Shown here piece by piece: positions 9,554 to 58,539 of a stretch of 64,000 nucleotides of DNA (positions are counted from its first letter, which is position 1; the number at the start of each line of letters is the position of its first letter). A program made the translations under genes and the position numbers. The notes below the pieces were generated by a model. That model worked only from the letters and a program-made list of their open reading frames with translations, was not told where the DNA came from and did no database searches. The DNA is from a virus. The stretch lies in the IMG/VR virus record IMGVR_UViG_3300027770_000027, positions 163,353-227,352 of that record. The stretch is one strand, 5' to 3'.

Positions 9554-9949
9554 TTATTTAAGTGATTTGTTTAATTGTTCAAGTGTTGAATTATAGAGAT
9601 TAATTTCTCTTTGAGATAATTCCATGTTATTAGCAATAATATTTGCATCCGAATCTTCTTCTTTTGATTTAGAAGAAGCTTTTTTAATGTAAGATAATTT
9701 ACAACTTATTTTAGGCAAAAGAGTTTTGTAAAATTTACCAGCCAAAAAATTTTCTTTAGACAATGGAGTTTTATACACCCATCTATTAAAAGTAACATTT
9801 ACTATTTGAGCTAAAGAATTATCTGCCATAGATAACCATCTATTGGTAATAAAAATAGATGGTATACTATGTTCTTCTGGGATCTTAGAAGACTTCTTAA
9901 GAATCCAATTTAAATAAGGAAACAGATCATCTTTATATTGAGGTTTCAT
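9554..9949 (-). CDS. Possible clamp-loader small subunit (gp62-like)
   Basis: 131 aa with ATG 9949 in a TAATG overlap with the DUF366 stop. LFPYLNWILKK followed by SIFITNRWLSMADNSLAQIVN recalls the start of T4-type gp62 proteins, where an N-terminal WLS/LSYF helix after a short aromatic stretch is conserved. The C-terminus has a Ser/Lys/Glu-rich linker and a final helix. T4 gp62 is 187 aa, so this would be short. The clamp is encoded in this window, but gp44 was not seen. Treat it as a hypothesis. Confidence 0.3.
   Translation of the reverse strand: MKPQYKDDLFPYLNWILKKSSKIPEEHSIPSIFITNRWLSMADNSLAQIVNVTFNRWVYKTPLSKENFLAGKFYKTLLPKISCKLSYIKKASSKSKEEDSDANIIANNMELSQREINLYNSTLEQLNKSLK
9555..9561 (-). 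promoter_or_regulatory. Late promoter TTAAATA overlapping a stop codon
   Basis: Minus-strand TTAAATA, 5 nt before the ATG of the GroES-like gene. The TAA of the upstream gene (9556-9554) uses the last bases of the motif. Confidence 0.6.
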
Positions 9950-10542
9950 TAAATGACTTTGGTGGTGGCTGTGAAACAATCTTGGATAATTTCATAAAAG
10001 ATATCATCAATCTTATAAGCCAATTTTTCGACCAAGTCATCTGTAAGATAAAGAGAGAATGCAAAACTAGGAGCTCTGCTTCCTGCACTGATATTAATTC
10101 CAAAATGTCCCAGAGCAACTGTATCTGTAACCTTAGTAATGCTTACACTGGCTTTGCCCCAGTCTTCTTTACCATCTTCACCCATGCCCTTTTTACGAAG
10201 CATCAGATCATCTCCGTTTACTTCAACATCATAAAGTCCAAAAATATCTGTTCTAAAAAGATTAGCAATTTCTTGAACAAATAATCTTTGAAAGAAGACC
10301 GCTCCAATCGGATTCATATTAGGAATCTCCCAACATACACTTAGAGCATCGTCTGAGTATATAAAATCATTTGATAGCTTATCTTCAAGATCAATTAAAT
10401 TATCTTTAACATCCATATTGCCTCGTGTAATATAGGCAACTCCAAGTGGATTATATTCCTTGCGAAAAATTTGATATCCAAAACGATTGTGGATTAAAGA
10501 TCCGTCATAGTCTTCATCATTATAAATTCTTGATCTGCTCAT
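9949..10542 (-). CDS. DUF366 family protein
   Basis: 197 aa. Landmarks match DUF366: EDYDGSLIHNRFGY at the start, GNMDVKDNLIDLED, then FFQRLFVQEIANLF, NGDDLMLRK, KASVSITKV and LGHFGINISAG. DUF366 is known mostly from archaea and some bacteria and has no established activity. The start at residue MSRSR (10542) avoids a 35-nt overlap with the gene before; a longer form from 10602 cannot be excluded. It closes a block queC, amidotransferase, glycosyltransferase, DUF366, so a role in 7-deazaguanine metabolism is a reasonable inference from position, but it is not shown by the sequence. Confidence 0.55.
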   Translation of the reverse strand: MSRSRIYNDEDYDGSLIHNRFGYQIFRKEYNPLGVAYITRGNMDVKDNLIDLEDKLSNDFIYSDDALSVCWEIPNMNPIGAVFFQRLFVQEIANLFRTDIFGLYDVEVNGDDLMLRKKGMGEDGKEDWGKASVSITKVTDTVALGHFGINISAGSRAPSFAFSLYLTDDLVEKLAYKIDDIFYEIIQDCFTATTKVI

Positions 10543-10567
10543 AAATATATGATAGCTGTTAACTAGC

Positions 10568-11251
10568 TTAAGTCCCGAATTTTTTTGAGAAGAGTTTTGC
10601 ACTGTCCATCCAGTCTGGGGTGTTCATACTGTCTCCCAGCCCATGATGAACTACTCGAATAGGCAATACCCCCATTTTGACCTTTTTGGCGTTGCAGTCT
10701 AAACAAAAAGCCAAATCATAGTGGTGAAAATTAAAATCTTTATCAAATTTAGCACCTTTAGTAGTCACTGCTTCTACATCAATTGCTAAGAACAAACCAT
10801 CTAATACCAGAGCTCTAGAATTTGTGGGCCCGAATACAGTTGTCCACACTCTACTATCCGCCGCATGGGCAACTTCTCCTACATGAGTAGGTCTTTCAGA
10901 CATCAAATGCCACGCAGGAGCTTTGGAGAGATTGATAGATTTGGCACCAGCCAAACCAGTGACTTCATAAGGAGAATTTTGTAATTTGTCTACTAAAAGC
11001 AAATCTTCCAATTCAACATCATCATGTACAAAAAGTAAAATACTTTTCTTGTGTTTTGGATCTTCTAAAAAAGTATTGTAAAGTTTGGACAAACCTTCTT
11101 TATTATCCTTTACAATAACAAAATCAAAAACTCCTTTACGAAACAAATCGTTGGAGTCATATTGACGCTGTAAGGATTTAAAAATTGGCCTGTTTTCAAA
11201 TTCTTTGATGTCTTTTGCTTGAGTTGCAATTACTGCAGTTACTTTTTTCAT
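10568..11251 (-). CDS. Glycosyltransferase-like protein in the queC block
   Basis: 227 aa. ILLFVHDDVELED near residue 70 is the acidic DxD-like motif of the GT-A 'glycosyltransferase-like' family (PF13712 type), followed by GLAGA, RVWTTVFG and LVLDGLFLAIDVE, then the HHYDLAFCLDCN helix with a second acid, and RVVHHGLGDS. These fit a GT2-related nucleotide-sugar transferase. The acceptor is unknown. It overlaps the amidotransferase gene by 4 nt (ATGA), so it belongs to the same transcript as queC. A DNA-base or virion acceptor are both possible. Confidence 0.65.
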   Translation of the reverse strand: MKKVTAVIATQAKDIKEFENRPIFKSLQRQYDSNDLFRKGVFDFVIVKDNKEGLSKLYNTFLEDPKHKKSILLFVHDDVELEDLLLVDKLQNSPYEVTGLAGAKSINLSKAPAWHLMSERPTHVGEVAHAADSRVWTTVFGPTNSRALVLDGLFLAIDVEAVTTKGAKFDKDFNFHHYDLAFCLDCNAKKVKMGVLPIRVVHHGLGDSMNTPDWMDSAKLFSKKFGT

Positions 11252-11886
11252 ATAAAATAAGGACTTTCGTAAGAAAATGTTCCTTCTTTTGAGAAAGAAC
11301 CTTCTTTTAATTTAAACCAAATTCCATCTTCTTCAACGCATGTAGAATCTTGAAACTGAGAAGACGAAAAAGAATCTTTATCCATCCACAATGAACTACC
11401 CGCCTTGACCACATACACCTCTCCGTCCCACACAATCCAACTGGTAAGTAATCCTTGATAGTTGGAATATGTTTTTGATATACTGTAATTTTTAATTAAA
11501 TCATGGGGTATCATTTGGGAGTCCACCTCAAATGGAGGATTACTATTAATTTCTTCAAAATTTGTTATAATACCATTGTGAGCTACAAAACAACCATCCT
11601 GGTCAAATGGGTGAGTTGTTTTGTCACTCCATTTAGTTTCTGTACTATTAGTGGGTGCTCTGGAATGAAAAAGAAAATAATCGTAAGGTTGATTACTCAA
11701 TGCTAACTTATATTGATAATTTTCAAAATCTGTATCTGTCAGGTGTCCTGGCAGTTTGTGTATAAAATATGATTTTGAGTTTCTACAAACCGCCATGAAC
11801 CCCGTAGAATAACTACCTCGATGTAAATTTAATTTGTAAAGATTAAATGCTTTTTCAAAATTTGAACTGCCTGCAATTCCACACAT
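11248..11886 (-). CDS. Class II glutamine amidotransferase, stand-alone
   Basis: 212 aa starting MCGIAGS, with the catalytic Cys at position 2; ATG 11886 is chosen because this family needs that N-terminal cysteine. Further landmarks are LHRGSYSTGF, LFHSRAPTN, THPF and CFVAHNGIITNFEE (glutamine pocket and oxyanion Asn-Gly), then DSQ. No synthase or isomerase domain follows. The gene starts 4 nt after the queC stop. In archaea and phage 9g a GATase is fused to QueC (Gat-QueC) for archaeosine formation; here the two parts are separate. It likely delivers ammonia to a preQ0- or CDG-derived substrate. Confidence 0.8.
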   Translation of the reverse strand: MCGIAGSSNFEKAFNLYKLNLHRGSYSTGFMAVCRNSKSYFIHKLPGHLTDTDFENYQYKLALSNQPYDYFLFHSRAPTNSTETKWSDKTTHPFDQDGCFVAHNGIITNFEEINSNPPFEVDSQMIPHDLIKNYSISKTYSNYQGLLTSWIVWDGEVYVVKAGSSLWMDKDSFSSSQFQDSTCVEEDGIWFKLKEGSFSKEGTFSYESPYFI

Positions 11887-11890
11887 GATA

Positions 11891-12631
11891 TTATAATACT
11901 GTGCAATTATATTTTTGCCAATCAATGATTCGCGAATATTGTAGAGGATCTACCTTTTTAAGTTGGATCCAGCCTGCCAATCTTGCTGAACAACTTGGAC
12001 ATTCTCCACATGACTTTTCGTGTTCGGTATAGCAAGTACGAGTTTGTGTAAAATCTACACCCAATTCAATTCCATATTCTATAATTTCTTTTTTTGTTTT
12101 ATCAATTAAAGGTGCTTTAATTTCTATTTGTTTGCGCCTGTTCAAAGAAAGAATAGTATTTAACCGGTTCCTAAATCCTGGTGTACAATCCCAGAACCCA
12201 GAAGTATCATCTGCTTTGGCAGCTCCGTATAGAACATGTTCTGCTCCTACACTTTCTGCCATACCAATTGCCAAAGACAAAAATATCATATTTCTATTGG
12301 GAACGTATGCAGTATTTTGTGGATCTCCGATAACCTCTTTCATTTTAGGAACATCTACGTCATCTCTTGTCAAGGCTGAATCAAATTTTAAAAATTTTAA
12401 AGCTAATGGAAATCTACTATACTTTATTTTTTCAGCATGTTTTGATTTAAAAATAATATTTGTAATATAATCCTCTGCTCTGGTTAATTCACTGATATTT
12501 CTTTGTCCGTAATCTATACCTAAAGCATATACTTGTTCATAATTTGTCAATGCATGATGCAAAACAACTGTGCTATCCATGCCACCACTGTATAAAACAA
12601 CACAAGACTTCGGAGAAAACGATGTATCCAT
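11891..12631 (-). CDS. queC: 7-cyano-7-deazaguanine (preQ0) synthase QueC
   Basis: 246 aa. PP-loop VVLYSGGMDSTV near residue 13, then ALGIDYGQRN, YVPNRNMIFLSLA, and a C-terminal zinc site TCYTEHEKSCGECPSCSARL. QueC converts CDG to preQ0 using ATP and ammonia, through the amide ADG. ATG 12631 is preferred over 12685 because the 18 extra residues are hydrophobic noise and would overlap the divergent gene. It heads a minus-strand block with a GATase, a glycosyltransferase and DUF366; QueD, QueE, FolE2 and a DpdA-like protein are on the plus strand far to the right. Confidence 0.93.
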   Translation of the reverse strand: MDTSFSPKSCVVLYSGGMDSTVVLHHALTNYEQVYALGIDYGQRNISELTRAEDYITNIIFKSKHAEKIKYSRFPLALKFLKFDSALTRDDVDVPKMKEVIGDPQNTAYVPNRNMIFLSLAIGMAESVGAEHVLYGAAKADDTSGFWDCTPGFRNRLNTILSLNRRKQIEIKAPLIDKTKKEIIEYGIELGVDFTQTRTCYTEHEKSCGECPSCSARLAGWIQLKKVDPLQYSRIIDWQKYNCTVL

Positions 12632-12633
12632 AT

Positions 12634-12641
12634 GGTAAATA
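12634..12641 (+). promoter_or_regulatory. Late-promoter-like GGTAAATA
   Basis: Plus-strand GGTAAATA, 8 nt before ATG 12650, in the 18-nt gap between divergent genes. It deviates from TATAAATA at two positions, but the distance to the start matches the other late sites. Confidence 0.4.
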
Positions 12642-12649
12642 TAGTATAA

Positions 12650-13219
12650 ATGAAAACTTCGAAGAAATCTAGCAAAAAGAATCAAAAAGTGTATAGCAAA
12701 GCACAGAAAAGTGAAGTTGCACGAATTTTAAAGTCAAATCAGCAAGAATGTGGGTGTGATGAATCTTATGTTCCATTTCTTAAAAGTTTTATCAAACATT
12801 TAGTAAGAGAAGCAGATGAAGCTCCAGCTGTAGAACCCCAGGACCCACAAAGTTTTACACAAGATCAAAATCAAAAAGATTTTAAGGGATCTTTAGAGCC
12901 ATCTACACAGCCAGACCAATTTGATACAGAAGGAACTGATCCAAATCTGGCTGCTGATGCTATTGCTTCTATTACAGAATGGTCGGGTAGATTGGAGGAG
13001 TTTGCAAAATTCTTAAATAGTCCGGATAGCCAGTCTTTACATGCTACATTAGCAGCTCAGGATCGTCCGGGTTCTTTGTTAAGAGGAGTTACTCGTAAAG
13101 CATCTGATAGTATTACACGTATTGCAGGAGAAGTAGAAAAACTTAAAGAGGTTCTTAATCAATTTATTATTATGGCTCCTAAAAAACAAAGAGATACAGA
13201 TCAACTTAAAATGGCTTAA
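12650..13219 (+). CDS. Hypothetical protein, 189 aa
   Basis: Unrecognised. The first 30 residues are very basic (KKSSKKNQKVYSKAQKSE), followed by a helix with a CGC motif, a Pro/Gln/Asp-rich linker (residues about 60-105) and a helical C-terminal half. It is a single plus-strand gene between queC and the primase and its tail overlaps the primase stop by 4 nt. The basic start, acidic linker and late-type promoter would suit an internal head or scaffold-associated protein, but there is no direct evidence. Confidence 0.5.
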   Translation: MKTSKKSSKKNQKVYSKAQKSEVARILKSNQQECGCDESYVPFLKSFIKHLVREADEAPAVEPQDPQSFTQDQNQKDFKGSLEPSTQPDQFDTEGTDPNLAADAIASITEWSGRLEEFAKFLNSPDSQSLHATLAAQDRPGSLLRGVTRKASDSITRIAGEVEKLKEVLNQFIIMAPKKQRDTDQLKMA

Positions 13220-16947: not shown

Positions 16948-16955
16948 TATTTATT
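16948..16955 (-). promoter_or_regulatory. Late promoter AATAAATA overlapping the DUF1501 stop
   Basis: Minus-strand AATAAATA, 5 nt before ATG 16942. The TAA ending the second DUF1501 gene (16956-16954) shares two bases with it. Confidence 0.6.
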
Positions 16956-18318
16956 AAGCAATAACCTCTTTGACCACATTTCCGTATACATCTGTGAGCC
17001 TAAATGGTCTACCATTGTATTCATAAACAAGTTTGGTGTGATCAAATCCCATCAAAGCAAGCATGGTTGCATGGAGATCGTGAATATGAACAATATCTTT
17101 GACTGATTTACCTCCAGTTTCATCAGTCTCTCCGTAACGCTGCCCACCTTTAACTCCACCTCCGGCCATCCAAACACTAAAGGCTTTGCCGTTGTGATCT
17201 CTTCCTGGAGCGCCTACTCCACCACCTGCCTGGACTGTACGACCAAATTCTCCACCCCAAACCACAAGAGTAGAATCCAGCATCCCTCTTTGCTTCAAGT
17301 CTGTAAGAAGAGCACCAAATGGCTGATCGTATCTTCCTGCAGTTCTTGTCATGGCGTTCTTAATATCCATGTGATGATCATAGCCACCTACATTCACCTG
17401 CACAAAACGAACTCCACGTTCAACCAAACGTCTTGCAAGCAACATCTTAGCCCCTTCCTCAGTTTCACCGTACAAAGCCTTTGCTTCTGCAGATTCTTTA
17501 GAGATATCAAAAGCATCAGTAGCTTCAGTTTGCATTTTAAATGCTGTTTCAAAAGCCTCGATGCGTGACTCAAGCTGGGCATCTCTTTGAAGTTTTGCGA
17601 GATGGTTTGAGTTCAGTGTATTTGCAAAATTAATCTGCCTTCTTTGTCTTTCAAGAGTAGAAAATTCGCTGCGAATGTTGGCTAAAATCTGTTCTGCTTT
17701 TATTCCTCTACGATATGATACGTTACAACCCTGATACATTCCTGGCAAGAAAGCACATTGTCTCCATTCTGAAGCTCCGTTTAAGGAAATAAATCCAGGC
17801 ATGCTTTGATTCTCTGTACCCAGCCCATACACCATCCAAGATCCCATGCTAGGCTTGGAAAGCTGAGCAGATCCAGTTGCCATCATTTTTTGAGCAATAT
17901 TATGATCTGGAATTTCTGTCTGCATGCTGTTAATGATAGCAATATCATCAGCATGGCTTCCCAATTGAGACCAAACTTCTGAATAATGAATACCAGATTT
18001 TCCAAACTGTTTGAACTCAAAAGGAGAAGCTAGCAAATTGCCAAACTCATGTTTTACTCCATCTCTCTTTTGAAGTTCTGGTTTGTAATCAAACGTGTCA
18101 ACATGAGATGGTGCTCCAGTTGCAAACAAGTGAATGATAGATTTTGCTTTCACTGGCCAGTGAGGCTTTTTTGGAGCAGTTGGAGAAACTGCTTCAGCTG
18201 TCATTGGATTTAAACCATAAAGAGAAGCCAATGAAAGTCCTCCAAGTCCCCAACCAAAGTCGGTAAGGAATTCTCTACGTGTTTGTGGGTCGCTATTGTG
18301 ATGTCCGCAGTCGCTCAT
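16954..18318 (-). CDS. DUF1501 protein with Tat signal (second copy)
   Basis: 454 aa. A twin-arginine signal (TRREFLTDFGWGLGGLSLASLYG) opens the protein, so export of a folded protein to the periplasm is expected. Family landmarks: SIIHLFATGAPSHVDTFDYKP, IPDHNIAQKMMATGS, GVRFVQVNVGGYDHHMDI, LVVWGGEFGRT, GRDHNGKAFSVWMAGGGVKGG and YGETDETGG. DUF1501 proteins belong to the alkaline phosphatase/sulfatase-like superfamily and are abundant in Planctomycetes and Verrucomicrobia, usually next to DUF1549/DUF1553 genes, which are missing here. The gene begins 6 nt after the first copy and is intact. Its role in a phage is unknown; it could act on the cell envelope or a surface polymer late in infection. 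Confidence 0.9.
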   Translation of the reverse strand: MSDCGHHNSDPQTRREFLTDFGWGLGGLSLASLYGLNPMTAEAVSPTAPKKPHWPVKAKSIIHLFATGAPSHVDTFDYKPELQKRDGVKHEFGNLLASPFEFKQFGKSGIHYSEVWSQLGSHADDIAIINSMQTEIPDHNIAQKMMATGSAQLSKPSMGSWMVYGLGTENQSMPGFISLNGASEWRQCAFLPGMYQGCNVSYRRGIKAEQILANIRSEFSTLERQRRQINFANTLNSNHLAKLQRDAQLESRIEAFETAFKMQTEATDAFDISKESAEAKALYGETEEGAKMLLARRLVERGVRFVQVNVGGYDHHMDIKNAMTRTAGRYDQPFGALLTDLKQRGMLDSTLVVWGGEFGRTVQAGGGVGAPGRDHNGKAFSVWMAGGGVKGGQRYGETDETGGKSVKDIVHIHDLHATMLALMGFDHTKLVYEYNGRPFRLTDVYGNVVKEVIA

Positions 18319-18324
18319 AAAATA

Positions 18325-19584
18325 TTAGGCTAAAAGTTCTTTTACTACAGTCCCATTATACACTATTGCTACAGGACGTCCATCTGGAGTTTCTAGTTTA
18401 GAATCGGGATTAATTCCAATTTGATTATACATCGTAGCTGCAAGATTTTCTGGTGATAGAGCTGACTCTTCGACATCTCCGCCAGTAGCATCAGATGCTC
18501 CGTGAATATAACCTCTCTTAATACCTCCACCAGCTAGAGCTACTGAGAATACTCTCGGCCAGTGATCTCTTCCGCCGTCTTTATTAATTTTAGGAGTACG
18601 ACCAAATTCAGAACTTACCATAACAAGAGTAGAATCTAACATGCCACGTTGATCTAGATCTGTAATAAGAGCAGCATATGCTTGATCAAATGCAGGTAAG
18701 GTTTTGTTCATGTTTGCACCAATATTAGTATGCATGTCCCAACCACCATAAGTGACAGATACAAAGCGTACTCCAGACTCTACCAACCGACGAGACATTA
18801 ATAGTCTTTGACCTGCTTGATTAAGGCCATAAGCTTCTCTTAGGGCATCTGATTCTTTAGTTAAATCAAAAGCTCCCTTCGCCTTTGGAGAAGAAATTAA
18901 ATCATATGCTTGCTGATAGAAAGTATCCATTGCAGCAAGGTTGTCACTCTTTTCGAGATATCTAAAATGTTTATCTACGGTATCAAGAATACTACGTCTT
19001 TTATCAAATCGTTCTTCACTAACAGTTGATTGCAAATCTCTTACCTTAAATCCTGGAGCAGCTGGATCAGAGCCAAGACTAAAAGGACCGTAAGCGTTAG
19101 ATAAATAACCAGTACCAGCGACTTCCCCATGAGCGTTAGGAACAGAAACATAAGCTGGCAAACTATTACGACCACCTAATTGTTGAGCTGTTACTGAACC
19201 AAAAGAAGGATATGTCACAGCAGGAGATGGACGATAACCAGTAAACATAGTGGATGTACCTCTTTCATGAGCTGCATCTCCGTGAGTCATGGAACGGACT
19301 ACTGAAATTTTATCTGCAATTTTTGCTGTCTTTGCTAAATTTTCTGAAAAGTGGACTCCGGGAATTACTGTCTGCACAGATTTGAGAGGCCCTCTATACT
19401 CTGCAGGGGCTAAAGGTTTTGGATCCCACATTTCTTGCGCTGCAGCTCCACCGGGCAAATAAATGTGAATGACTGATTGAGCTTTTGGGGTGAGGGGCGA
19501 CTCTGCTTGAAGTTTTAAGGCGTCTCCTAACGAAAGACCTAAACCTCCAAATAGACCAGTGTAAAGAAAATCACGTCTGTTCAT
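18325..19584 (-). CDS. DUF1501 protein with Tat signal (first copy)
   Basis: 419 aa. Tat signal NRRDFLYTGLFGGLGLSLGD, then SVIHIYLPGGAAAQEMWDPK, MTHGDAAHERGTSTMFTGY, GVRFVSVTYGGWDMHTNI, MVSSEFGRTPKINKDGGRDH and ALAGGGIKRGYIHGASD: the complete set of DUF1501 landmarks, with no frameshift. It differs clearly from the second copy, so the pair is an old duplication or was taken up as a pair. A phage late promoter TTAAATA ends 5 nt before ATG, so the gene is wired into phage late expression. By eye, some stretches are richer in GC than the flanking phage genes, as expected after transfer from a bacterium. Confidence 0.9.
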   Translation of the reverse strand: MNRRDFLYTGLFGGLGLSLGDALKLQAESPLTPKAQSVIHIYLPGGAAAQEMWDPKPLAPAEYRGPLKSVQTVIPGVHFSENLAKTAKIADKISVVRSMTHGDAAHERGTSTMFTGYRPSPAVTYPSFGSVTAQQLGGRNSLPAYVSVPNAHGEVAGTGYLSNAYGPFSLGSDPAAPGFKVRDLQSTVSEERFDKRRSILDTVDKHFRYLEKSDNLAAMDTFYQQAYDLISSPKAKGAFDLTKESDALREAYGLNQAGQRLLMSRRLVESGVRFVSVTYGGWDMHTNIGANMNKTLPAFDQAYAALITDLDQRGMLDSTLVMVSSEFGRTPKINKDGGRDHWPRVFSVALAGGGIKRGYIHGASDATGGDVEESALSPENLAATMYNQIGINPDSKLETPDGRPVAIVYNGTVVKELLA

Positions 19585-35892: not shown

Positions 35893-35894
35893 AA

Positions 35895-37515: not shown

Positions 37516-37517
37516 TT

Positions 37518-37643: not shown

Positions 37644-37652
37644 CACTAAATT

Positions 37653-38684: not shown

Positions 38685-38692
38685 CTTAAATA
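38685..38692 (+). promoter_or_regulatory. Late-promoter-like CTTAAATA inside the sugar island
   Basis: CTTAAATA, 5 nt before ATG 38698 of the GT10-like gene, at the same distance as virion-gene promoters. It suggests that the second half of the island is expressed late. Confidence 0.5.
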
Positions 38693-38697
38693 TCCAC

Positions 38698-40289: not shown

Positions 40290-40294
40290 AAAAT

Positions 40295-40894
40295 ATGAAT
40301 TTAAATCTTAATATAATAAACAAATATTTTACTCCTAATAATATATTAGACATAGGTGCAAATATTGGTGATTTTAATCTGTATAGCCAACACTTTTTTC
40401 CAAACGCATACATATATTCAATTGAAGGCAACAAAACATGCGAAAATTGTCTAAAAGATCGCAACTTAAATTATAAAATTTGTTTATTGGGTTCTAAAAA
40501 AGATACGGCAATTTTTTATAAAAATAAACTTGAACCCACATCTACGGGAAATTCCTTATATAGAGAATTAACTCCTCATTTTTGTGATGAAAACGTCATA
40601 GAAGAATTATCACAAATAGAAACATTAGATGACATTTTGGCATATTCTGATATTGTATTTGATTTTATAAAAATTGACACTCAAGGATCAGAAATAGATA
40701 TATTGAAAGGTGGGTTAAAAACATTAAATAAAGCAAAAGCGGTATTATTAGAAGTATCATACAAACCATATAATTTAAACTCTCCATTAGAAGACGAAGT
40801 TATTTCGTTCATGAAAATATATGGATATGAAACTATCGAAGAATTAGCACACAATCCGAATGTCGGACAACGTGATTTACTATTTATAAAATGA
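40295..40894 (+). CDS. FkbM-type SAM methyltransferase
   Basis: 199 aa. NILDIGANIGDFNLYS is motif I, IYSIEGNKTCENCL motif II, and DFIKIDTQGSEIDILKGG with KAVLLEVSYKPYN is the FkbM family signature. These enzymes O-methylate sugars or other small acceptors. The gene overlaps the next by 4 nt and probably caps glycans made by neighbouring transferases. Confidence 0.8.
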   Translation: MNLNLNIINKYFTPNNILDIGANIGDFNLYSQHFFPNAYIYSIEGNKTCENCLKDRNLNYKICLLGSKKDTAIFYKNKLEPTSTGNSLYRELTPHFCDENVIEELSQIETLDDILAYSDIVFDFIKIDTQGSEIDILKGGLKTLNKAKAVLLEVSYKPYNLNSPLEDEVISFMKIYGYETIEELAHNPNVGQRDLLFIK

Positions 40895-41853
40895 AAATTG
40901 GATTTTACATGCCCCATATTGATATACAAGGAACTGGAGTTTCTGTATTTGAATATTGCCTTTTTAATAAAAGCTTATTAGGAAACGAGTCTGTAATGAT
41001 TCATGACAAAAACCATAGTAGCAATAATGAAAAAGCTATAACAAAATTCAAAGATGCCGGTATAGAAATCATCAGTTTAGATGGATCAGAAAATCAGAAA
41101 GAAATAGAAAAAACACTGGAAGATAAAAATATTGATGGATTATATATTCAAAAATTAGGAAGAATAGCAGATGGGGGGTTTGCTAGCAATAAACCAACTC
41201 TTATACATTCTAACGGACTATATAATGAACCTCACGGAACTGTATATTCTTATATTAGTGAATGGTCTAGTTTGAAATGCTCTAATGGAAAACATCCATA
41301 TATTCCTTATATAGTAAGATTGCCCGATTTTGAAGAAGATTATCGCAAACATTTAAATATACCAAAAGATGCAATTGTATATGGAAGAATTGGTGGTTAT
41401 TATTCTTGGAATATTGAATGGGTTAATAATGTGATTATAGATTACTTAAATACAAACAAAAATGTTTATTTTTTATTTGTTCAAACACCTAATTTTATTA
41501 ATCATGACCGTGTTTTGTTTTTGAATTCCACATCAAATCTAGAAGAAAAAAGAAAATTTATTAATACTTGCGATGTGATGATTCATGCACGATTAGAAGG
41601 AGAAACATTTGGTCTTGCTTGTGCAGAATTTTCGTTTTGTAATAAGCCTGTTATTACTTTTGAACAATCTGATCAACAAAATCATATTCATATTCTAAAA
41701 GACAAAGGAATATATTATAATTCTCCGCAATCTCTCTCTGATATATTTAAATCATTTACAAAACAACCAGAAAAAGACTGGAATGCGTATAAAGATTTTA
41801 ATCCAAAAACAGTAATGGAAAAATTTAAAACAATTTTTTTGAATATTATATAA
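40891..41853 (+). CDS. GT4-like (GT-B) glycosyltransferase
   Basis: 320 aa. N-terminal half GFYMPHIDIQGTGVSVFEYC is the glycine loop of GT-B folds. AIVYGRIGGYYSWNIEWVNN begins the donor domain, followed by VYFLFVQTPNF and FINTCDVMIHARLEGETFGLACAEFSFCNKPVITF, the GT4 E-x7-E motif with the conserved EGE/FGLA segment. The enzyme is probably active. The sugar is unknown. Confidence 0.75.
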   Translation: MKIGFYMPHIDIQGTGVSVFEYCLFNKSLLGNESVMIHDKNHSSNNEKAITKFKDAGIEIISLDGSENQKEIEKTLEDKNIDGLYIQKLGRIADGGFASNKPTLIHSNGLYNEPHGTVYSYISEWSSLKCSNGKHPYIPYIVRLPDFEEDYRKHLNIPKDAIVYGRIGGYYSWNIEWVNNVIIDYLNTNKNVYFLFVQTPNFINHDRVLFLNSTSNLEEKRKFINTCDVMIHARLEGETFGLACAEFSFCNKPVITFEQSDQQNHIHILKDKGIYYNSPQSLSDIFKSFTKQPEKDWNAYKDFNPKTVMEKFKTIFLNII

Positions 41854-41854
41854 T

Positions 41855-42430
41855 ATGAAAATACAAATAAAAAAAGACGATGTCATACAATTCAATATAG
41901 AACATTTAAAAAAACTATCAATTTCACCAGAACATTGGCATCCCGCTGGAATCAGTGAATACCGACTATATTCATATCTTTCTACATTATTTGATAATAC
42001 TATTATATTAGATATAGGAACTAGAACTGGTAATTCTGCCCTTGCTTTATCACATAATTCATCTAATAAGATTATTAGTTATGATTTACAAGAACAAGGC
42101 GCGAGTAACATAAAAAAGGATAATATTACTTGGAAAATTAAAAATTTCATGGAAGACAGTGAAATAAATTGGGATAATGTTTCTATAGTTATGATAGACG
42201 TAGACCCACATGATGGAATACAAGAAAGAGAAATGATGAAATGGTTGGAAGAAAAAAAATGGAAAGGTATTCTTATACATGATGATATAATGGAATTTGG
42301 ACGATGGGCTGAAAATTGTAATATGTGGGATGAAATAAAATACGAAAAACTTATTTTAACCGATATCGGCCATTCGACAGGAACTGGGTTGGTGAATTTC
42401 GGAGAATCCCACGAAATTATTATAATTTAA
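41855..42430 (+). CDS. Class I SAM methyltransferase-like protein
   Basis: 191 aa. ILDIGTRTGNSALALSHNS is motif I, IISYDLQEQGASN motif II, and SIVMIDVDPHDGIQEREMMKWL the DxDxH-type metal/acceptor segment of Methyltransf_24-like enzymes; ILIHDDIMEFGRW follows. Small-molecule or sugar methylation is plausible. It starts 1 nt after the GT4-like gene. Confidence 0.7.
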   Translation: MKIQIKKDDVIQFNIEHLKKLSISPEHWHPAGISEYRLYSYLSTLFDNTIILDIGTRTGNSALALSHNSSNKIISYDLQEQGASNIKKDNITWKIKNFMEDSEINWDNVSIVMIDVDPHDGIQEREMMKWLEEKKWKGILIHDDIMEFGRWAENCNMWDEIKYEKLILTDIGHSTGTGLVNFGESHEIIII

Positions 42431-42431
42431 T

Positions 42432-43073
42432 ATGAAGAATGATTTTAAATACACATCAAACAATAATAGATCACAGGTTTTAGAATTTTTAAAAGAAAAT
42501 AATTTTTCTAGAGTGTTAGATGTTGGATACTCTGCTAATAACTGGTCTTCTGAATATACAACTCATTATATGGATATTAATGAATCAGATCTGTCTAAAA
42601 AATGGTTTGAGGGAGATATTAATGTACCATATATTTGGGAGAACGTACAAAAAGAAGTTGACAAAAATGGTAAATTTGATTTTTGTATATGTACTCATAC
42701 ATTAGAGGATATTATTAATCCTCATTATGTTTGTTGTATGATGGAAAAATATTCAAAGGCAGGGTTTATTGCAACTCCCTCAAAGTATGTTGAAATGTCT
42801 CGCCACGTAGATATGGGATATCCTTATAGAGGGTATATTCATCATCGTTATATTTTTAATAAAGAAAATAATGAGTATGTGGCATATCCAAAATTAAGTT
42901 TTGTGGAACAAGATAATCGATTTGACCGTTTAAGTTCCGATTTACAAGAAAATAACGCAGAAATACAATTTTTTTGGGAGGATAAAATTAATTTAATTAT
43001 AAAAAACAACAATTATATGGGACCCACTGTGGATCATGTCTTGAGGTATTACAACGACCTCTTACAGAACTAA
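42432..43073 (+). CDS. Putative SAM methyltransferase-like protein
   Basis: 213 aa. VLDVGYSANNWSSEYTTHYMDI stands as motif I and II in a weak form (the glycine loop is altered), and FDFCICTHTLEDIINPHYVCCMM is the motif IV region (C-x-H-T-L-E-D). The end HHRYIFNKENN and FVEQDNRFDRL is conserved in predicted polysaccharide-locus methyltransferases. It is the last island gene before gp46, 52 nt ahead of its start. Confidence 0.55.
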   Translation: MKNDFKYTSNNNRSQVLEFLKENNFSRVLDVGYSANNWSSEYTTHYMDINESDLSKKWFEGDINVPYIWENVQKEVDKNGKFDFCICTHTLEDIINPHYVCCMMEKYSKAGFIATPSKYVEMSRHVDMGYPYRGYIHHRYIFNKENNEYVAYPKLSFVEQDNRFDRLSSDLQENNAEIQFFWEDKINLIIKNNNYMGPTVDHVLRYYNDLLQN

Positions 43074-44958: not shown

Positions 44959-45711
44959 ATGTCAGAAGAAAATTATCTATTAATCAGTGATGACGGTCCT
45001 GGATTTCATACTATTGAAGGAGAAGGAGAACTTATTGGAAGACCAAGTGTCTTTATGCGTCTCTTTGGATGCAATTTGACATGTAAAGGTTGGGCTACTC
45101 CAGATTCTCCTTGGGGATGTGATTCCTTTATCTCTTGGTCTAAGAAAAATAAATATACATTTGAACAAATGTTCAATTTTTATGAAGAAAATGGACTAGC
45201 AGAAAAGTTAATGCGCGGAGATATTTGGAAAATTACAGGAGGAGAACCAATGCTACGCCAAGAACCTCTTTTAAATTTTGTAAGAGCATTTGTTGAGCGT
45301 TTTAATTTTTTACCCACTATAGATTTTGAGACCAACGGAACCATCAAGCCAAATGATTTATGGGTAAATGAATTCCAAGCAACCTTTACAGTGTCTCCTA
45401 AAATGTCCAACAATGGAGATCCTGTAGAAAAGAGATTTAAACCAGAAGTATTAGATTGGCACTGTGTTAATGATTCTTGTTTTAAGTTTGTTATAGGGTC
45501 AGAACAAGATTTGGAAGAATTGAAGGATGTTTATCTGTCTAGTACAGAATTTGCTATTCATTCTAGTCGAGTTTGGCTGATGGTGTGTGCAGGATCTCGT
45601 CAAGAACATATTGAACGGGCGGGTTCTGTTGCAGAATATGCTAAAAAATTAGGATTAAATTTTTCACCGCGCTTGCAACTTGTAATTTGGGATAAAGCTC
45701 TTAAAGTTTAA
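44959..45711 (+). CDS. queE: 7-carboxy-7-deazaguanine synthase QueE, variant cysteine motif
   Basis: 250 aa. GPGFHTIEGEGELIGRPSVFMRL is the substrate-side start, KITGGEPMLRQ the GGEP SAM motif, TIDFETNGTI and FTVSPKMSNNGDP the distal motifs, and LQLVIWD the end. The iron-sulfur ligands read CNLTCKGW then WGCDSF, a CX3CX11C spacing rather than the usual CX3CX2C. It forms CDG from CPH4, the third step to preQ0. It starts 6 nt after gp46 and is followed by a glycosyltransferase and gp43. Confidence 0.9.
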   Translation: MSEENYLLISDDGPGFHTIEGEGELIGRPSVFMRLFGCNLTCKGWATPDSPWGCDSFISWSKKNKYTFEQMFNFYEENGLAEKLMRGDIWKITGGEPMLRQEPLLNFVRAFVERFNFLPTIDFETNGTIKPNDLWVNEFQATFTVSPKMSNNGDPVEKRFKPEVLDWHCVNDSCFKFVIGSEQDLEELKDVYLSSTEFAIHSSRVWLMVCAGSRQEHIERAGSVAEYAKKLGLNFSPRLQLVIWDKALKV

Positions 45712-49637: not shown

Positions 49638-50495
49638 ATGTTCAAGAAAGCATTAATAGCTCACGAAGCTCCTAGAGCAGCAATGGATAGAGTACAAGAA
49701 ATTACCGACTATGATTATTGTTTGGTACATCTCTTAGAGGAAGACCCCACTTATTTAAAATTTTTTAAAGAAGCTAAAGATAAAGGTAGATCCATCATCA
49801 TGGATTGTAGTCTGTTTGAATTGGGTCATGCATTTGATCCGGAAAAATATTATAAATGGCTTTTAGAAATACAACCAAATGAATACATAATTCCAGACGT
49901 GTGGCAAGAGTGTGAATCTAATTTGAAATCTTACAAAGAATTTACTTCAAAATTTGATCTCTCCAAATTAACTGGGAAACGCATAGGTGTATTACAGGGA
50001 AGGTCTTATGAAGACTTTAAACGAGCATATCTTTTCATGAAAACAGAGGCAGATAAGATTGCTATAAGTTTTGGATATGATTATTACTGGGAAAATTTTT
50101 CAACCAGTTGGCAAATTTCAGGACTTTGGATCGGTCAAAATTTACGTAATGTTGCAGACTTCGAAAAGATGGTAGCTAAGCCAACATCATATGCTCACGG
50201 AAGAACCCATTTAATTGAAAGTTTGTTTGAAGATGAAATCTGGGATACTACAAAGCCTCATCATTTATTGGGATGTGGAATTCCTATAGAATTTGCAAAT
50301 CTAGACCCATCAATTGAAAGTATTGATACCTCTCATCCTGTAATGTGTGGATTTTATGAAAAATCCTACGAAGAACCCACAACCATGTGGAGTAAAATTC
50401 ACGAAAAAATGGTTGATGTATATGATAAAGATATTTCAGACTCACAGTGGAACTTAATCAAATCTAACATAACACAATTTAAAAATCTTGTATGA
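49638..50495 (+). CDS. dpdA: DpdA-like DNA 7-deazaguanine transglycosylase
   Basis: 285 aa. The fold pattern of tRNA-guanine transglycosylases is visible: IMDCSLFELGHAFD in place of the DSGGFQ segment, YIIPDVWQEC, RIGVLQGRSYEDFK (the P-V-V-Q-G region), KIAISFGYDYYW, and HHLLGCGIPIEFANLD followed by IESIDTSHPVMCGF, where the Asp of IDTSHP is the likely nucleophile. DpdA enzymes exchange G for preQ0 in DNA. The gene sits between the polymerase and thyX. Full-length tRNA enzymes are longer and have a zinc site, which is absent here, as in phage DpdA. Confidence 0.72.
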   Translation: MFKKALIAHEAPRAAMDRVQEITDYDYCLVHLLEEDPTYLKFFKEAKDKGRSIIMDCSLFELGHAFDPEKYYKWLLEIQPNEYIIPDVWQECESNLKSYKEFTSKFDLSKLTGKRIGVLQGRSYEDFKRAYLFMKTEADKIAISFGYDYYWENFSTSWQISGLWIGQNLRNVADFEKMVAKPTSYAHGRTHLIESLFEDEIWDTTKPHHLLGCGIPIEFANLDPSIESIDTSHPVMCGFYEKSYEEPTTMWSKIHEKMVDVYDKDISDSQWNLIKSNITQFKNLV

Positions 50496-51304
50496 AAATA
50501 AGCGTTAAATCAATTACCCAACCATTAGTCAGGACAGAAGATGATGTACGATTTCTGACACCTGAGGAATTTATCGTATATACTGCCAGGGTATCAAATC
50601 CGTCAAATCAATTAAACACATTATCAGCTTCTAAATTAATAAAATATTGTATCAATCATGAACACTGGTCTGTGTTTGAACAGGCAGACATGACCCTAGA
50701 AATTGTAACTAGCAGAGACATATCGGCTCAAATTATTCGTCATAAAAGTTTTTCTTTTCAAGAGTTTAGTCAGCGATACAGTGCTGTAACTAACCTAGAA
50801 TCTTTTGATATTAGAAAACAAGCAGAAAAAAATCGTCAATCTAGTGAAGAAATTTTAGATTTGCCAGAAGAAGACATACAGAAAATTACCACTTATTTGC
50901 AAGCTGGTATGGATTTGTATGATTATCTCTTAAAGAAGGGAGCTGCTAGAGAAAGCGCGCGAAAAATTCTTCCTCTTTGTGCACAGACCACTTTATATAT
51001 GAAAGGATCTATAAGATCTTGGATTCATTATATTATGTTGAGGTCTAAAAAAGAAACTCAACTAGAACATCGAGAAATTGCTATAACAGCTGGAAAAATT
51101 TTACAAAAAACATTTCCAGCTGTGTTTGAAGCTTTGGAAGAAATTAAAACAGAGGCAGAAGAATTTGAAAAGTGGAAAGCAAATCCACATTATCAGTGTA
51201 ATGAACACCCCCAGACTTCCCCTTCAAGAGAAGGATTAAAAATTGCGCCAACTCAAGAAGAGATTCGCAAAACTCTGGTTGACAATGGCACATACATACT
51301 TTAA
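50492..51304 (+). CDS. thyX: Flavin-dependent thymidylate synthase ThyX
   Basis: 270 aa. The ThyX signature RHKSFSFQEFSQRY (RHRx7S type) is near residue 79, preceded by HEHWSVFEQADMTLEI, and followed by ARESARKILPLCAQTTLYM and IRSWIHYIMLRSKKETQLEHREIA. It makes dTMP from dUMP with FAD, where T4 uses an unrelated ThyA-type enzyme. It overlaps dpdA by 4 nt, so both are likely expressed as nucleotide and base-supply functions. Confidence 0.92.
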   Translation: MKISVKSITQPLVRTEDDVRFLTPEEFIVYTARVSNPSNQLNTLSASKLIKYCINHEHWSVFEQADMTLEIVTSRDISAQIIRHKSFSFQEFSQRYSAVTNLESFDIRKQAEKNRQSSEEILDLPEEDIQKITTYLQAGMDLYDYLLKKGAARESARKILPLCAQTTLYMKGSIRSWIHYIMLRSKKETQLEHREIAITAGKILQKTFPAVFEALEEIKTEAEEFEKWKANPHYQCNEHPQTSPSREGLKIAPTQEEIRKTLVDNGTYIL

Positions 51305-51314
51305 TATTAACATC

Positions 51315-51710
51315 ATGAGTAATGAAAACACACCACAAACAAACGTAGTTGTCTTTTTAGACATCGTTGGCAGAACCATCCTAGCTGAACAGGTAACCAA
51401 GACTGCTACTGAACTAACTGTTAAGAATCCAGTCATCTTTAATGTTGTTCCTGCAGACAACGGTCGTATGACTGTACAATTGTTTCCGGTATTCTTCAAG
51501 GAATTCCTTGCAGACAAGTCTGAAGACACAGTCTTTACTTGGAAGACTGATCAAATTACTGAATCCAATATTACAGCTTTGGATTTCCGACTATTGGGAC
51601 AATATTCTCAAATGTTTAATCCAGCAAATGTATTTGTTCCAGCAAATGAAGCAGGTGCAGTTAATCAACAGCCAGCCAACGCACAGGTTGTTAATTTATT
51701 TGACGAATAA
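51315..51710 (+). CDS. Conserved hypothetical protein, Sm-like beta fold possible
   Basis: 131 aa from ATG 51315; the longer frame from 51243 overlaps thyX and is rejected. NVVVFLDIVGRTILAEQVTKTATELTVKNPVIFNVVP is a run of beta strands as in small SH3/Sm barrels, followed by MTVQLFPVFFKEFLAD and a Gln/Asn/Pro-rich tail. It precedes uvsX by 8 nt. The function is unknown; its position suggests the recombination or replication group. Confidence 0.55.
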   Translation: MSNENTPQTNVVVFLDIVGRTILAEQVTKTATELTVKNPVIFNVVPADNGRMTVQLFPVFFKEFLADKSEDTVFTWKTDQITESNITALDFRLLGQYSQMFNPANVFVPANEAGAVNQQPANAQVVNLFDE

Positions 51711-51718
51711 AAAATAAT

Positions 51719-52846
51719 ATGGCAAAAAAAACCCATTCTCCGGATGTGATGGCTGCTTTTAAGGTCTTAGATGACCTTAATCCAGACGCTACATTTCTCA
51801 ATGAATCCGCTCTTTCAAATATTAGCTCTTTCATTGATACAGGTTCAATGGCTCTTAATGCAATCATTAGTGGCTCCCTCAAAAATGGGGGAGTCCCTTC
51901 TGGTCGTATCACAGGGTTCAGTGGACCAACCTCTTGCGGCAAGACATATATCATTAATCGCATCCTGGCAAATGCTCAAAAAGCTGGTCGTTATGTAGTT
52001 ATTTTTGATACAGAAAATGCAGTAGATGACAAGGGAGCTACTAATATGGGTATGGATACTTCTAAAGTGAAGTATTGTCCTGTAGAGACTGTAGAACAGT
52101 GCCGTAATCAGATTAGCCAATTTTTGGATTCTGTTATTGCTAAAAAATTAAACAGCCAATTTATTATTTCTATAGATTCTCTTGGTAATTTAGTTTCTAC
52201 CAAGGAAATGGCAGACGTTGCTGCTGGAAAAGAAGCAATGGACATGGGTACACGAGCTAAAGGTCTTAAAAGCATGTTGAGAGTATTAACACATAAAGCA
52301 GCAAAAGCTGATGTGCCTATTATTTTCTCAAATCATGTTTATGAAAATCCCGCAGCCATGTTTCCTACATTAGTAAAACAACAATCAGGAGGATCTGGTC
52401 CTCTTTATATGTCTTCTGTATTGGTACAAATGTCTGTAAAGAATGAAAAAACCACAGGAGGAAATACCGGTAGTCGGGATGCCGTAGAAGATACTTCTCC
52501 AATGTCTAAAGACATCAACGGTGTAACTCTACGAGCACTTACTACTAAAAATAGGGTAGTTCCTCCTTTCATGGAAACTGAAATGTATCTTAACTTTAAG
52601 AATGGATTGGCAAAATATTCTGGATTGTTAGATATGGCAGTTGGGTATGGTGTAGTAATCCAAAATGGAGCAACATTTGCGTTGCCAGATGGCACCAAGT
52701 TGGGATATTATAAAAATTGGAGAGACAATGAAGAAATTTGGAATAAAATTCTACCAGAATTAGAAATCAAACTTCATGATGAACTTCAATATAAAAAAGA
52801 AGTAACTTCCAAAGAACCAGAAGACAATGAAGAAGACGAGGACTAG
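51719..52846 (+). CDS. uvsX: Recombinase UvsX (RecA-like)
   Basis: 375 aa (T4: 391). ITGFSGPTSCGKTYIINRIL holds the Walker A, VVIFDTENAVDDKGA the catalytic Glu region, FIISIDSLGNLVSTKEM Walker B, and VPIIFSNHVYENP with GGSGPLYMSSVLVQM the L2-side motifs. The C-terminus is acidic (EPEDNEEDED), as in UvsX and RecA. It forms filaments on ssDNA loaded by UvsY. The last 20 nt overlap a small basic ORF. Confidence 0.93.
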   Translation: MAKKTHSPDVMAAFKVLDDLNPDATFLNESALSNISSFIDTGSMALNAIISGSLKNGGVPSGRITGFSGPTSCGKTYIINRILANAQKAGRYVVIFDTENAVDDKGATNMGMDTSKVKYCPVETVEQCRNQISQFLDSVIAKKLNSQFIISIDSLGNLVSTKEMADVAAGKEAMDMGTRAKGLKSMLRVLTHKAAKADVPIIFSNHVYENPAAMFPTLVKQQSGGSGPLYMSSVLVQMSVKNEKTTGGNTGSRDAVEDTSPMSKDINGVTLRALTTKNRVVPPFMETEMYLNFKNGLAKYSGLLDMAVGYGVVIQNGATFALPDGTKLGYYKNWRDNEEIWNKILPELEIKLHDELQYKKEVTSKEPEDNEEDED

Positions 52847-52928
52847 TACACGTACCGTCAAAAAAGGAAATGTAACAGTACGCAAAACAGTTACAATTTC
52901 AAAAACAATTAAACCTAGAAAAAAATAA
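52827..52928 (+). CDS. Small highly basic peptide, 33 aa
   Basis: Begins in the UvsX acidic tail codons in another frame and stops directly before the queD ATG. The peptide starts MKKTRTSTRTVKKGNV and contains about 13 Lys/Arg and no acidic residue. It exactly fills the gap between uvsX and queD. A histone-like or RNA-binding peptide could be imagined; it may also be a chance frame. Confidence 0.45.
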   Translation: MKKTRTSTRTVKKGNVTVRKTVTISKTIKPRKK

Positions 52929-53390
52929 ATGGATATATTTGCATCATCTTTATTTGAAAGTACCAAAATAATTGAATTGGGTAGTTGTGCCTTTCGACAG
53001 TGGAGAGCTACAAATTCTCATTGTCGTTTTATTCATGGTTATCAGTTAAAGGCTAAGTTTTGGTTTAGCGGAACAGAATTGGATGATAAAAATTGGGTTG
53101 TAGACTTTGGAAGTCTAAAAGATCTTAAGAAAATCTTACAATCCCAATTTGATCATACCTTGTGTATTGCTCAAGATGATCCATTACTACCATCATTTAT
53201 TCAATTACATGATAATGGTGGATGTGATTTGAGAATCATGGAAGGTGTGGGTATTGAAAAGACTGCAGAGTGGTGTTTTAATGCAGCTGATAAATATATT
53301 AGGGAATCTACCTATGATCGCTGTTGGGTGAGTAAAGTTGAAGTATGGGAACATACAGAAAATTCAGCAACCTATAGGCGTCCCTTTTAA
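52929..53390 (+). CDS. queD: 6-carboxytetrahydropterin synthase QueD, variant metal site
   Basis: 153 aa. CAFRQWRATNSHCRFIHGYQLKAKFWF, then NWVVDFGSLKDLKKIL, FDHTLCIAQDDP, EKTAEWCFNAADKYI and VEVWEHTENSATY follow the PTPS/QueD fold, with the DHT and E-H residues of the active site. The canonical first zinc His and the HGH pair are not conserved (R-Q-W and HGY); this looks like the known HGY subfamily seen in proteobacteria. It would make CPH4 from dihydroneopterin triphosphate, step two to preQ0. A strong terminator follows. Confidence 0.82.
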   Translation: MDIFASSLFESTKIIELGSCAFRQWRATNSHCRFIHGYQLKAKFWFSGTELDDKNWVVDFGSLKDLKKILQSQFDHTLCIAQDDPLLPSFIQLHDNGGCDLRIMEGVGIEKTAEWCFNAADKYIRESTYDRCWVSKVEVWEHTENSATYRRPF

Positions 53391-56712: not shown

Positions 56713-56750
56713 ATTAATCACACAAACCACAAACCACATAACAAATAACC

Positions 56751-57626
56751 ATGAAATACACCGCTAACCTATTTGATTCCATCAAAGAAGCTCTGAACAA
56801 AAAGTCAAATTCTGAAGCCTCTAGTTTTAGAGACTTTATGAAATTAGAAATTGGCAAAACATATTTGGTCCGTCTATTGCCAAATATTAAAAATCCAGAA
56901 CGTACCATGTTTCACTACTACCACCATCTGTGGAATAGTGTGATTACAAATCAAATTACCTCTGTTCTTTGTCCCACCACTTACGGAGAACGTTGTCCTA
57001 TTGATGAATATCGCTCTAAATTGTACCGAGCCCAAGACAAGGCAGAAATTGAACGCAATAAACCAATTAAGCGCAACGAAAATTGGCTTGTGAATGTCTA
57101 CGTCATTCAAGATCCAACCAATCCAGAGAATAACGGACAGGTTAAAATTCTTCGTTATGGTAAACAATTAGATAAGATTATCACAGCAGCAATTTCCGGA
57201 GACGATTCCGCAGAATTTGGTTCCAAAGTTTTTGATCTTTCTGAAAAGGGATGTAATCTTCGGATCAAAGTTGAAGAAAATGAAGGAAAGTATCCTACAT
57301 ACGTTGCGTCAAGGTTTTTGAGTCCATCTACATTGGCCGGAAACCCAGATACAGATCTACTTTATGATAGTGTAAAAGATCTTGAGAGTATCTTTGAACA
57401 CAAATCTTTTGATGAAGTTCAAAAAATCTTTACCCAACACTGGCTCGGTCAAACTGAAGCTACTCCTAAAACCTCTTCTACCAAAGAAGTAGAAGATGAG
57501 GACAATTTTGAAGTAGAGTCTTACACCCCAGCCAAAAAAACCACAACAACCGTCTCTGAAGCAGAAGATGAAACGAATTCAACTCCAGTGGATGATCGCA
57601 TCCAAGACATTCTTCGTGATCTCTAA
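56751..57626 (+). CDS. 32: Single-stranded DNA-binding protein gp32
   Basis: 291 aa (T4: 301). The N-terminal LAST-like and basic segment (SIKEALNKKSN), then LEIGKTYLVRLLPN, the zinc-region FHYYHHLWNSV with CPTTYGERCPIDEY, RNENWLVNVYVIQDP and NNGQVKILRYGKQLDK, as in the gp32 OB fold. The final 60 residues are acidic (EDEDNFEVES, EAEDETNS) and end in DRIQDILRDL, the protein-docking tail. It coats ssDNA in replication and recombination. Its leader may allow autoregulation, as in T4. Confidence 0.92.
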   Translation: MKYTANLFDSIKEALNKKSNSEASSFRDFMKLEIGKTYLVRLLPNIKNPERTMFHYYHHLWNSVITNQITSVLCPTTYGERCPIDEYRSKLYRAQDKAEIERNKPIKRNENWLVNVYVIQDPTNPENNGQVKILRYGKQLDKIITAAISGDDSAEFGSKVFDLSEKGCNLRIKVEENEGKYPTYVASRFLSPSTLAGNPDTDLLYDSVKDLESIFEHKSFDEVQKIFTQHWLGQTEATPKTSSTKEVEDEDNFEVESYTPAKKTTTTVSEAEDETNSTPVDDRIQDILRDL

Positions 57627-57690
57627 TATTTGGAGATTTTTAAAAGAAACTAGCTATTATATACACAAATCATTAACCAATAAAAAACAT

Positions 57691-58539
57691 ATGCCACGCA
57701 TCAAAACCAACGACGACATTCCCGACATTCAAAATACACTTGATGGATTTCCTAAGAAGTATATTCCAAAGGTAGGATCTCGTAATATTGTAGTTCCTAT
57801 GCAGATTCTTCGCAGGGATGGTACTATTAATCCTACTAAGGCAATTATTAGTATGTACACAGATTTGACTCCTGAAGTTAAGGGCACTAATATGAGCCGT
57901 TATCGCATTCTTGTTGAGGAAGTCTTGGCTAATCAAACTCATCGTATTGATGAAGTTATGGATATCCTACTAGATGAATGTAAGCTTCGACTCAAGAGTC
58001 AAAATGCCTACATCAAGATTAAGTTTGATTACTTTCTTAAGAAAGAAGCACCAGTTTCTAAGGTAGTTTCTCACATGGATTATCAGGGATCTCTGGAAGG
58101 TCGACTGATTAACGGAGAAAAGAAATTTTATCTACACGGCAATGTTCTTTACGCTTCCCTGTGTCCATGTTCAAAAGAAATTTCAGATTACGGTGCTCAC
58201 AATCAGCAATCATATGCAGACGTGACAGTTGAGTTGGCTAACGTAGGGACTGCAGAGTCAGATAATATCTATTGGCTAGAAGAATTGATTTTAGCAGTGG
58301 AAAAAAGTTCTTCGGCTCCAATTGTTAATGCACTCAAGCGTGTTGATGAAGCCTATCAAACAGAATTAATGTATGAAAATCCAGTATTTGTTGAAGACAT
58401 GGTTCGTAAGGTTGCAGTTGAACTTGATAAAGATCTTGATGGTCGCATCAAGGATTATCTAGTAATTGTAAACCACTATGAATCCATCCATTCAAGCATT
58501 GCTGTATCAGTAATTAATGCAGGAAGGGACTTGAAGTAG
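57691..58539 (+). CDS. folE2: GTP cyclohydrolase FolE2 (type IB)
   Basis: 282 aa. ATG 57691 begins the conserved part; the longer frame overlaps gp32. IPDIQNTLDGFPKKYIPKVG, VPMQILRRDG, AIISMYTDLTPEVKGTNMSRY, and the catalytic ASLCPCSKEISDYGAHNQQSY are FolE2 signatures. It makes dihydroneopterin triphosphate from GTP, the first step of the preQ0 route with QueD, QueE and QueC. The 30 nt before ATG also have no G, with a weak TATTAT box at 57655. A terminator follows. Confidence 0.92.
   Translation: MPRIKTNDDIPDIQNTLDGFPKKYIPKVGSRNIVVPMQILRRDGTINPTKAIISMYTDLTPEVKGTNMSRYRILVEEVLANQTHRIDEVMDILLDECKLRLKSQNAYIKIKFDYFLKKEAPVSKVVSHMDYQGSLEGRLINGEKKFYLHGNVLYASLCPCSKEISDYGAHNQQSYADVTVELANVGTAESDNIYWLEELILAVEKSSSAPIVNALKRVDEAYQTELMYENPVFVEDMVRKVAVELDKDLDGRIKDYLVIVNHYESIHSSIAVSVINAGRDLK

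Follow-up and report, generated by a model that had tools for sequence, protein, structure and literature searches.

The final 64 kb of a 227,352-b uncultured virus record (IMG/VR record IMGVR_UViG_3300027770_000027, positions 163,353 to 227,352; this whole stretch is termed the window and is numbered from its first base) carry genes with which the phage very probably synthesizes a 7-deazaguanine base and, once its DNA has been replicated, substitutes this base for guanine there, with putative tailoring of the base and a likely gain of resistance to restriction. Family searches established that the gene set for 7-cyano-7-deazaguanine (preQ0) is complete, as FolE2, QueD, QueE and QueC are all encoded and together cover the route from GTP to preQ0, and the set is accompanied by a transglycosylase of the DpdA type, a stand-alone class II glutamine amidotransferase (GAT), a DUF366 protein and a glycosyltransferase-like protein. 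These genes occupy four sites on the two strands, at 9949-12685 (-), 44959-45711 (+), 49638-53390 (+) and 57691-58539 (+). An earlier examination of the letters alone, referred to below as the sequence-only reading, had proposed a preQ0 route scattered in just this manner, and the family searches agree with it on each of the four enzymes; a pathway of a known kind is thus confirmed, in a CP220-type form with FolE2. The span from 9949 onwards which that reading had assigned to the pathway stood as regards the genes it named, but the DUF366 gene (9949-10542) and the glycosyltransferase-like gene (10568-11251) within it had been missed. No second copies of pathway genes were found in the whole record with the immuto and CP220 proteins as queries; outside the window the search covered selected families and reference proteins.

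The preQ0 genes

The family matches of FolE2, QueD, QueE and QueC are, to judge by their scores, not due to chance. FolE2 (57691-58539, +; PF02649, 2.3e-63) is predicted to be the GTP cyclohydrolase IB that converts GTP to dihydroneopterin triphosphate. Cultured phages with the pathway carry FolE, whereas the window carries FolE2 instead, and a search of 50,697 cultured-phage records returned only three weak FolE2 matches (31-37%), none of them in an annotated record. The FolE2 proteins of the window and of the related viral contig L004 share 92% identity as against just 57% for DpdA, which perhaps reflects recent exchange or strong constraint. A QueD-like 6-carboxytetrahydropterin synthase is encoded at 52929-53390 (+; PF01242, 4.9e-19; phrog_2389, 2e-37) and retains the catalytic cysteine and the FDH motif, while QueE, the radical SAM 7-carboxy-7-deazaguanine synthase (44959-45711, +; best match TIGR03963, 1.5e-15; phrog_2076, 2e-44), has three clustered cysteines that are retained among its relatives.

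QueC, the preQ0 synthase (11891-12685, -; PF06508, 1.2e-53; TIGR00364, above its cut-off), probably has its conserved start at the ATG at 12631. Its SGGxDS, VPxRN and cysteine zinc motifs are retained, FWDC stands for YPDC, and the YxQxHxxE motif has N for H (motifs as in PMC13329287); partial activity remains in the Y131F mutant of E. coli QueC (PMC13329287). A different variant, FxDN where canonical QueC has YPDC, occurs in bacterial QueC proteins encoded next to DUF366 (L210, L252 and L257), which may form a distinct QueC subgroup.

The DpdA-type transglycosylase

The 285-aa protein encoded at 49638-50495 (+) was assigned by tblastn, model fold and motifs to the DNA guanine transglycosylases (DpdA) of the CP220/immuto type. 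Neither Pfam nor NCBIfam gave a match, and a sequence-only search gave none in the PDB, so that a fold comparison was needed. By tblastn it is 39.6% identical to a protein of Flavobacterium phage immuto annotated as DpdA and 33-34% identical to proteins of CP220-group Campylobacter phages, with 34% over 98% of the protein for CP220 itself; Weizmannia phage Youna2 has a distant relative amid its QueC, QueD, QueE and FolE genes. An AlphaFold model built from an alignment of 34 relatives (predicted local distance difference test, pLDDT, 93.3) showed the (beta/alpha)8 fold of tRNA-guanine transglycosylases (TGT), and all 50 of its top 50 fold matches in the PDB were such enzymes (E 2.6e-7 to 2.8e-6, probability 1.00). 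D56 (in DxSxFEL), D87, Q120-G121, LLGCG and D230 (in DTSxP) are invariant or nearly so in the 34 relatives and fit TGT motifs; the regions of D87, Q120-G121, LLGCG and D230 align with E. coli TGT, the D230 region falling opposite FDCVMPT. The fold matches and this motif-by-motif alignment place the protein inside the TGT/DpdA families, as the sequence-only reading had supposed. Of the 9g, CAjan and CP220 types of phage that it had named as carrying such gene sets, the enzyme fits that of CP220, together with immuto, and not that of 9g or CAjan. An alignment with the first-type DpdA of phage Skure, which belongs to the genus of CAjan, was tried and was not significant.

That the protein works on DNA and not on tRNA is inferred from its kinship to CP220 and to the annotated DpdA of immuto. 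It is highly improbable that the preQ0 genes leave the DNA unmodified and serve instead to boost the queuosine content of host tRNA in infected cells. Such a boost has been proposed for phages that carry preQ0 genes without DpdA (PMC6884629), and the DUF366-bearing bacteria described below carry QueD and in most cases QueF, as would fit tRNA queuosine. This phage, however, encodes DpdA, whose family stays with the pathway genes over many viral contigs and in relatives sits among the preQ0 genes, and neither QueF nor a tRNA TGT detectable by Pfam (PF01702) was found in the whole 227,352-b record.

The stand-alone amidotransferase

GAT (11248-11886, -) begins 4 nt past queC and was assigned by its match to phrog_18128 (5.7e-15; GATase_6 gave only 0.012) and by its motifs. 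The protein starts with MCGIAG and has the N-terminal cysteine nucleophile and the oxyanion Asn-Gly of its class; in relatives that bear the gene block described below, the MC[GA]I start, RG, HxRAPT, HNGI and D[ST]Q are conserved, three members reading IC in the extracted frame. QueC is an ATP-pyrophosphatase, a kind of enzyme commonly served by class II amidotransferases. Pairing of GAT with queC was observed in at least three settings, namely the clade of the window, the DpdA-bearing contigs L066, L090, L093 and L094, and Vibrio phage 2.275.O; this, with the retained cysteine, bears out the class II amidotransferase that the sequence-only reading had placed beside QueC. In phage 9g a fused Gat-QueC and DpdA lead to dG+ (archaeosine) in DNA (PMC6884629), and by analogy the split pair of the window may do the same.

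Alternatively, GAT might partner the glycosyltransferase-like protein in amino-sugar or asparagine chemistry and have no part in the QueC step. Among curated families it comes closest, with weak scores throughout, to GlmS-type proteins, and in the marine relatives G006 and G007 its gene adjoins the glycosyltransferase-like gene with queC 1-3 kb away. We nevertheless consider this unlikely, as GAT lacks any domain of a sugar isomerase or a synthetase, QueC is of the class that such amidotransferases usually serve, and in L066, L090, L093, L094 and Vibrio phage 2.275.O a GAT homologue follows queC without a glycosyltransferase gene of this kind being detected by profile beside the pair.

DUF366, the glycosyltransferase-like gene and the four-gene block

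The DUF366 protein (9949-10542, -; PF04017, 2.6e-17, 63.3 bits against a cut-off of 29.9) was modelled with AlphaFold at a pLDDT of 85, and Foldseek ranked the Pyrococcus horikoshii DUF366 structure (PDB 2ddz) first (1.8e-11), followed by biotin and lipoate protein ligases, all of which share its fold. Its GDD, KxS and H-x-(G/A)-x-N motifs are invariant through phage and bacterial members and, in our own reading, are placed much as in the ligases. The ATP-loop typical of biotin ligases was looked for in vain. To our knowledge DUF366 has no assigned function; activation of, or acyl transfer on, a carboxylate such as 7-carboxy-7-deazaguanine (CDG) is a reasonable guess, no more.

The presence of DUF366 is linked to preQ0 genes. 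Among the DUF366-bearing viral contigs tested, several of which are fragments, queC was found in 18 of 18, queE in 15 of 18 and DpdA in 11 of 18, and in the 63 bacterial loci sampled queC adjoins DUF366 in 54 and queE in three more, though shared descent makes these counts of co-occurrence non-independent. Most of the bacterial loci belong to the order Gastranaerophilales, and the same linkage is seen again in Bdellovibrionales, Deltaproteobacteria, Armatimonadota and WS1. A literature search, which left out the DpdA-subtype literature (10.1093/nar/gkad657), found no published link between DUF366 and 7-deazaguanine, and DUF366 had no match in a genuine cultured phage. A match in 'Microcystis phage MaAM05' was rejected as a cultured-phage case, because bacterial housekeeping genes surround it and a Vampirovibrio metagenome-assembled genome encodes a 100% identical protein. 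The MaAM05 record itself (L001; GenBank MW495066.1, 106417-126956) looks bacterial, with secDF, glyS, mtgA, fliM and pomA.

Two roles for DUF366 were rejected. A replacement of QueF, whether by DUF366 or by the pair of GAT and glycosyltransferase-like protein, does not agree with the marine relatives G001, G002, G003 and G005, which carry both QueF and DUF366; GAT was found near queC in those of them where it was looked for (G001, G003 and G005). Replacement of QueD in bacteria is contradicted by a PTPS/QueD-family gene in 21 of the 21 DUF366 genomes tested.

The glycosyltransferase-like gene (10568-11251, -; PF13712, 4e-6) overlaps that of GAT by 4 nt and encodes a family-2 type protein with invariant HDDV and FHHYD motifs. 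It has no homologue among cultured phages and no structure match by sequence; from its PF13712 match and gene context, a role in moving sugar onto a DNA base is possible. Together queC, GAT, the glycosyltransferase-like gene and DUF366 form a tight block, and 19 other viral contigs have all four together, in the order queC-GAT-GT-DUF366 or queC-GT-GAT-DUF366 (GT, the glycosyltransferase-like gene). In L014-L016 a gene of the sugar-nucleotide reductase/epimerase type lies between GAT and the glycosyltransferase-like gene, and because this sugar-nucleotide enzyme is encoded inside the block we keep glycosylation open.

A simpler account is that the DNA carries plain preQ0 or its amide, and that the glycosyltransferase-like protein and DUF366 do other jobs, such as surface sugars or host metabolism, and are neighbours by descent only. 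We regard this as a realistic possibility, not far short of an even chance. The phage has many further glycosyltransferase-like genes (30689-43073), in most marine relatives DUF366 lies by GroES-like and helicase genes with queC elsewhere on the contig, and CAjan and Rosebush, which have queC without an amidotransferase, contain dPreQ0 (PMC6884629). Against it, the adjacency of GAT and the glycosyltransferase-like gene persists in freshwater contigs and in marine G006 and G007, with the two near each other in G001 and in two gene orders overall, and several bacterial groups that are unrelated to one another have DUF366 beside queC or queE.

Proposed pathway and end product

We propose that FolE2, QueD and QueE would convert GTP to CDG and that QueC would turn CDG into preQ0 with ATP and ammonia, whereupon DpdA, with its TGT fold and both TGT aspartates, would cut guanine from DNA and put in the deazapurine. 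GAT would pass ammonia from glutamine to QueC, or to a step like that of QueC which acts on the base, in the manner of the fused Gat-QueC of 9g, and the two could give an amide or archaeosine form; on the same pathway DUF366 may catalyse carboxylate activation or acyl transfer, and the glycosyltransferase-like protein may add a sugar. The likely outcome would be phage DNA resistant to restriction enzymes. Restriction evasion is proposed because of published work on other phages (PMC6884629), in which knockout of dpdA in CAjan abolished the DNA modification and rendered the DNA cuttable.

Several observations weigh against the proposed pathway. The enzymes of its steps are putative assignments by family. 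PF01702, the Pfam TGT model, had no match in the record and matched only 2 of the 34 DpdA relatives (best E 0.088), and a profile comparison of DpdA with TGT scored weakly (P 0.0026); the DpdA assignment therefore rests on fold, motifs and context. A match to that Pfam model is, however, not a defining feature of phage DpdA, and published DpdA2 was likewise missed by PSI-BLAST from 9g DpdA (PMC6884629). In the QueD-like protein two of the three usual zinc-binding histidines are changed, as throughout its phage subfamily, immuto included, and QueE scores under the curated cut-offs of its families. GAT is encoded separately and thus lacks the fusion that marks Gat-QueC, so that its partnership with QueC is an inferred one. 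Lastly, a single phage clade and a single bacterial order make up most of the co-occurrence sets for DUF366.

The sequence allows more than one end product, as the sequence-only reading had also held. The likeliest forms are preQ0, the amide or archaeosine, which are favoured because QueF is absent from the record; a preQ1-type base is unlikely, save if the host supplies it. QueF was found in the four DUF366-bearing marine relatives named above and in no contig with the four-gene block. A glycosylated 7-deazaguanine is a possible product. The fullest version of this idea is tentative and we consider it doubtful: QueC and GAT would make an amide or amidine, DUF366 would catalyse a new ligase or acyl-transfer step and the glycosyltransferase-like protein would add a sugar to give glycosylated 7-deazaguanine in DNA, with DUF366 a member of the preQ0 pathway in bacteria also.

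Comparison with characterized phages

Campylobacter phage CP220 encodes QueD near its DpdA homologue, as does the window; the CP220 QueD has the usual metal site whereas that of the window is altered, and the searches with DUF366 and the glycosyltransferase-like protein returned no Campylobacter phage among their matches. The CP220 enzyme is presumably of the type called DpdA3, and guanine in CP220 DNA is reportedly replaced by the amide form. Phage immuto (Immutovirus) resembles the window not only in DpdA but also in encoding QueE, QueC and a QueD with the same altered metal site. In contrast, immuto has FolE and QueF, with an expected preQ1-type product, and no DUF366 in its IMG/VR record, while the window has FolE2, GAT and DUF366 and no QueF. 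In the QueD-like subfamily FRQW...HC..(I/L)HGY replaces the usual zinc site, a feature common to immuto-type phages and not shared by phage Skure. In Enterobacteria phage 9g, likewise, DpdA occurs together with preQ0 genes and with a class II amidotransferase that works alongside QueC (PMC6884629), but there the amidotransferase is fused to QueC and DpdA is of the first type, whereas the window has separate genes and the CP220/immuto type. The DpdA of the CAjan genus could not be convincingly aligned with that of the window.

Genome setting

The DNA polymerase is nearest to T4-like gp43 at only about 30%, and the phage therefore has no close relative in the cultured-phage collection. Shine-Dalgarno-like sites are depleted in the window, occurring before 2 of 52 ATG-start genes as against 16% of random stretches, which suggests a host with Bacteroidota-type initiation and a host group similar to that of immuto. 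A promoter scan of 8-16 kb gave no excess over shuffled sequence (31 versus 29.3). At 16954-19584 two neighbouring DUF1501 proteins (PF07394, 3e-134 and 6e-111) with Tat-like N-termini are encoded, which is unusual for a phage, and the pair is probably of bacterial origin. The glycosyltransferase-like genes at 30689-43073 stand in a row with methyltransferase-like and epimerase genes, at a GC content of 28-30%, below the rest of the window.

The 7-deazaguanine pathway itself is a known anti-restriction device, and the range of phage pathways is here widened by an uncultured T4-like clade with FolE2 and an amidotransferase that is not fused to QueC. The new element is DUF366, a family whose structure has been solved: it accompanies preQ0 genes both in phages and in a number of bacterial groups, and its function is directly testable. 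If our reading of DUF366 is true, the preQ0 pathway of bacteria, too, would have in it a member that has gone unrecognised. Should the glycosyltransferase-like protein act on the base, the resulting 7-deazaguanine with its sugar would be new among DNA bases, and could protect the phage DNA from more defences.

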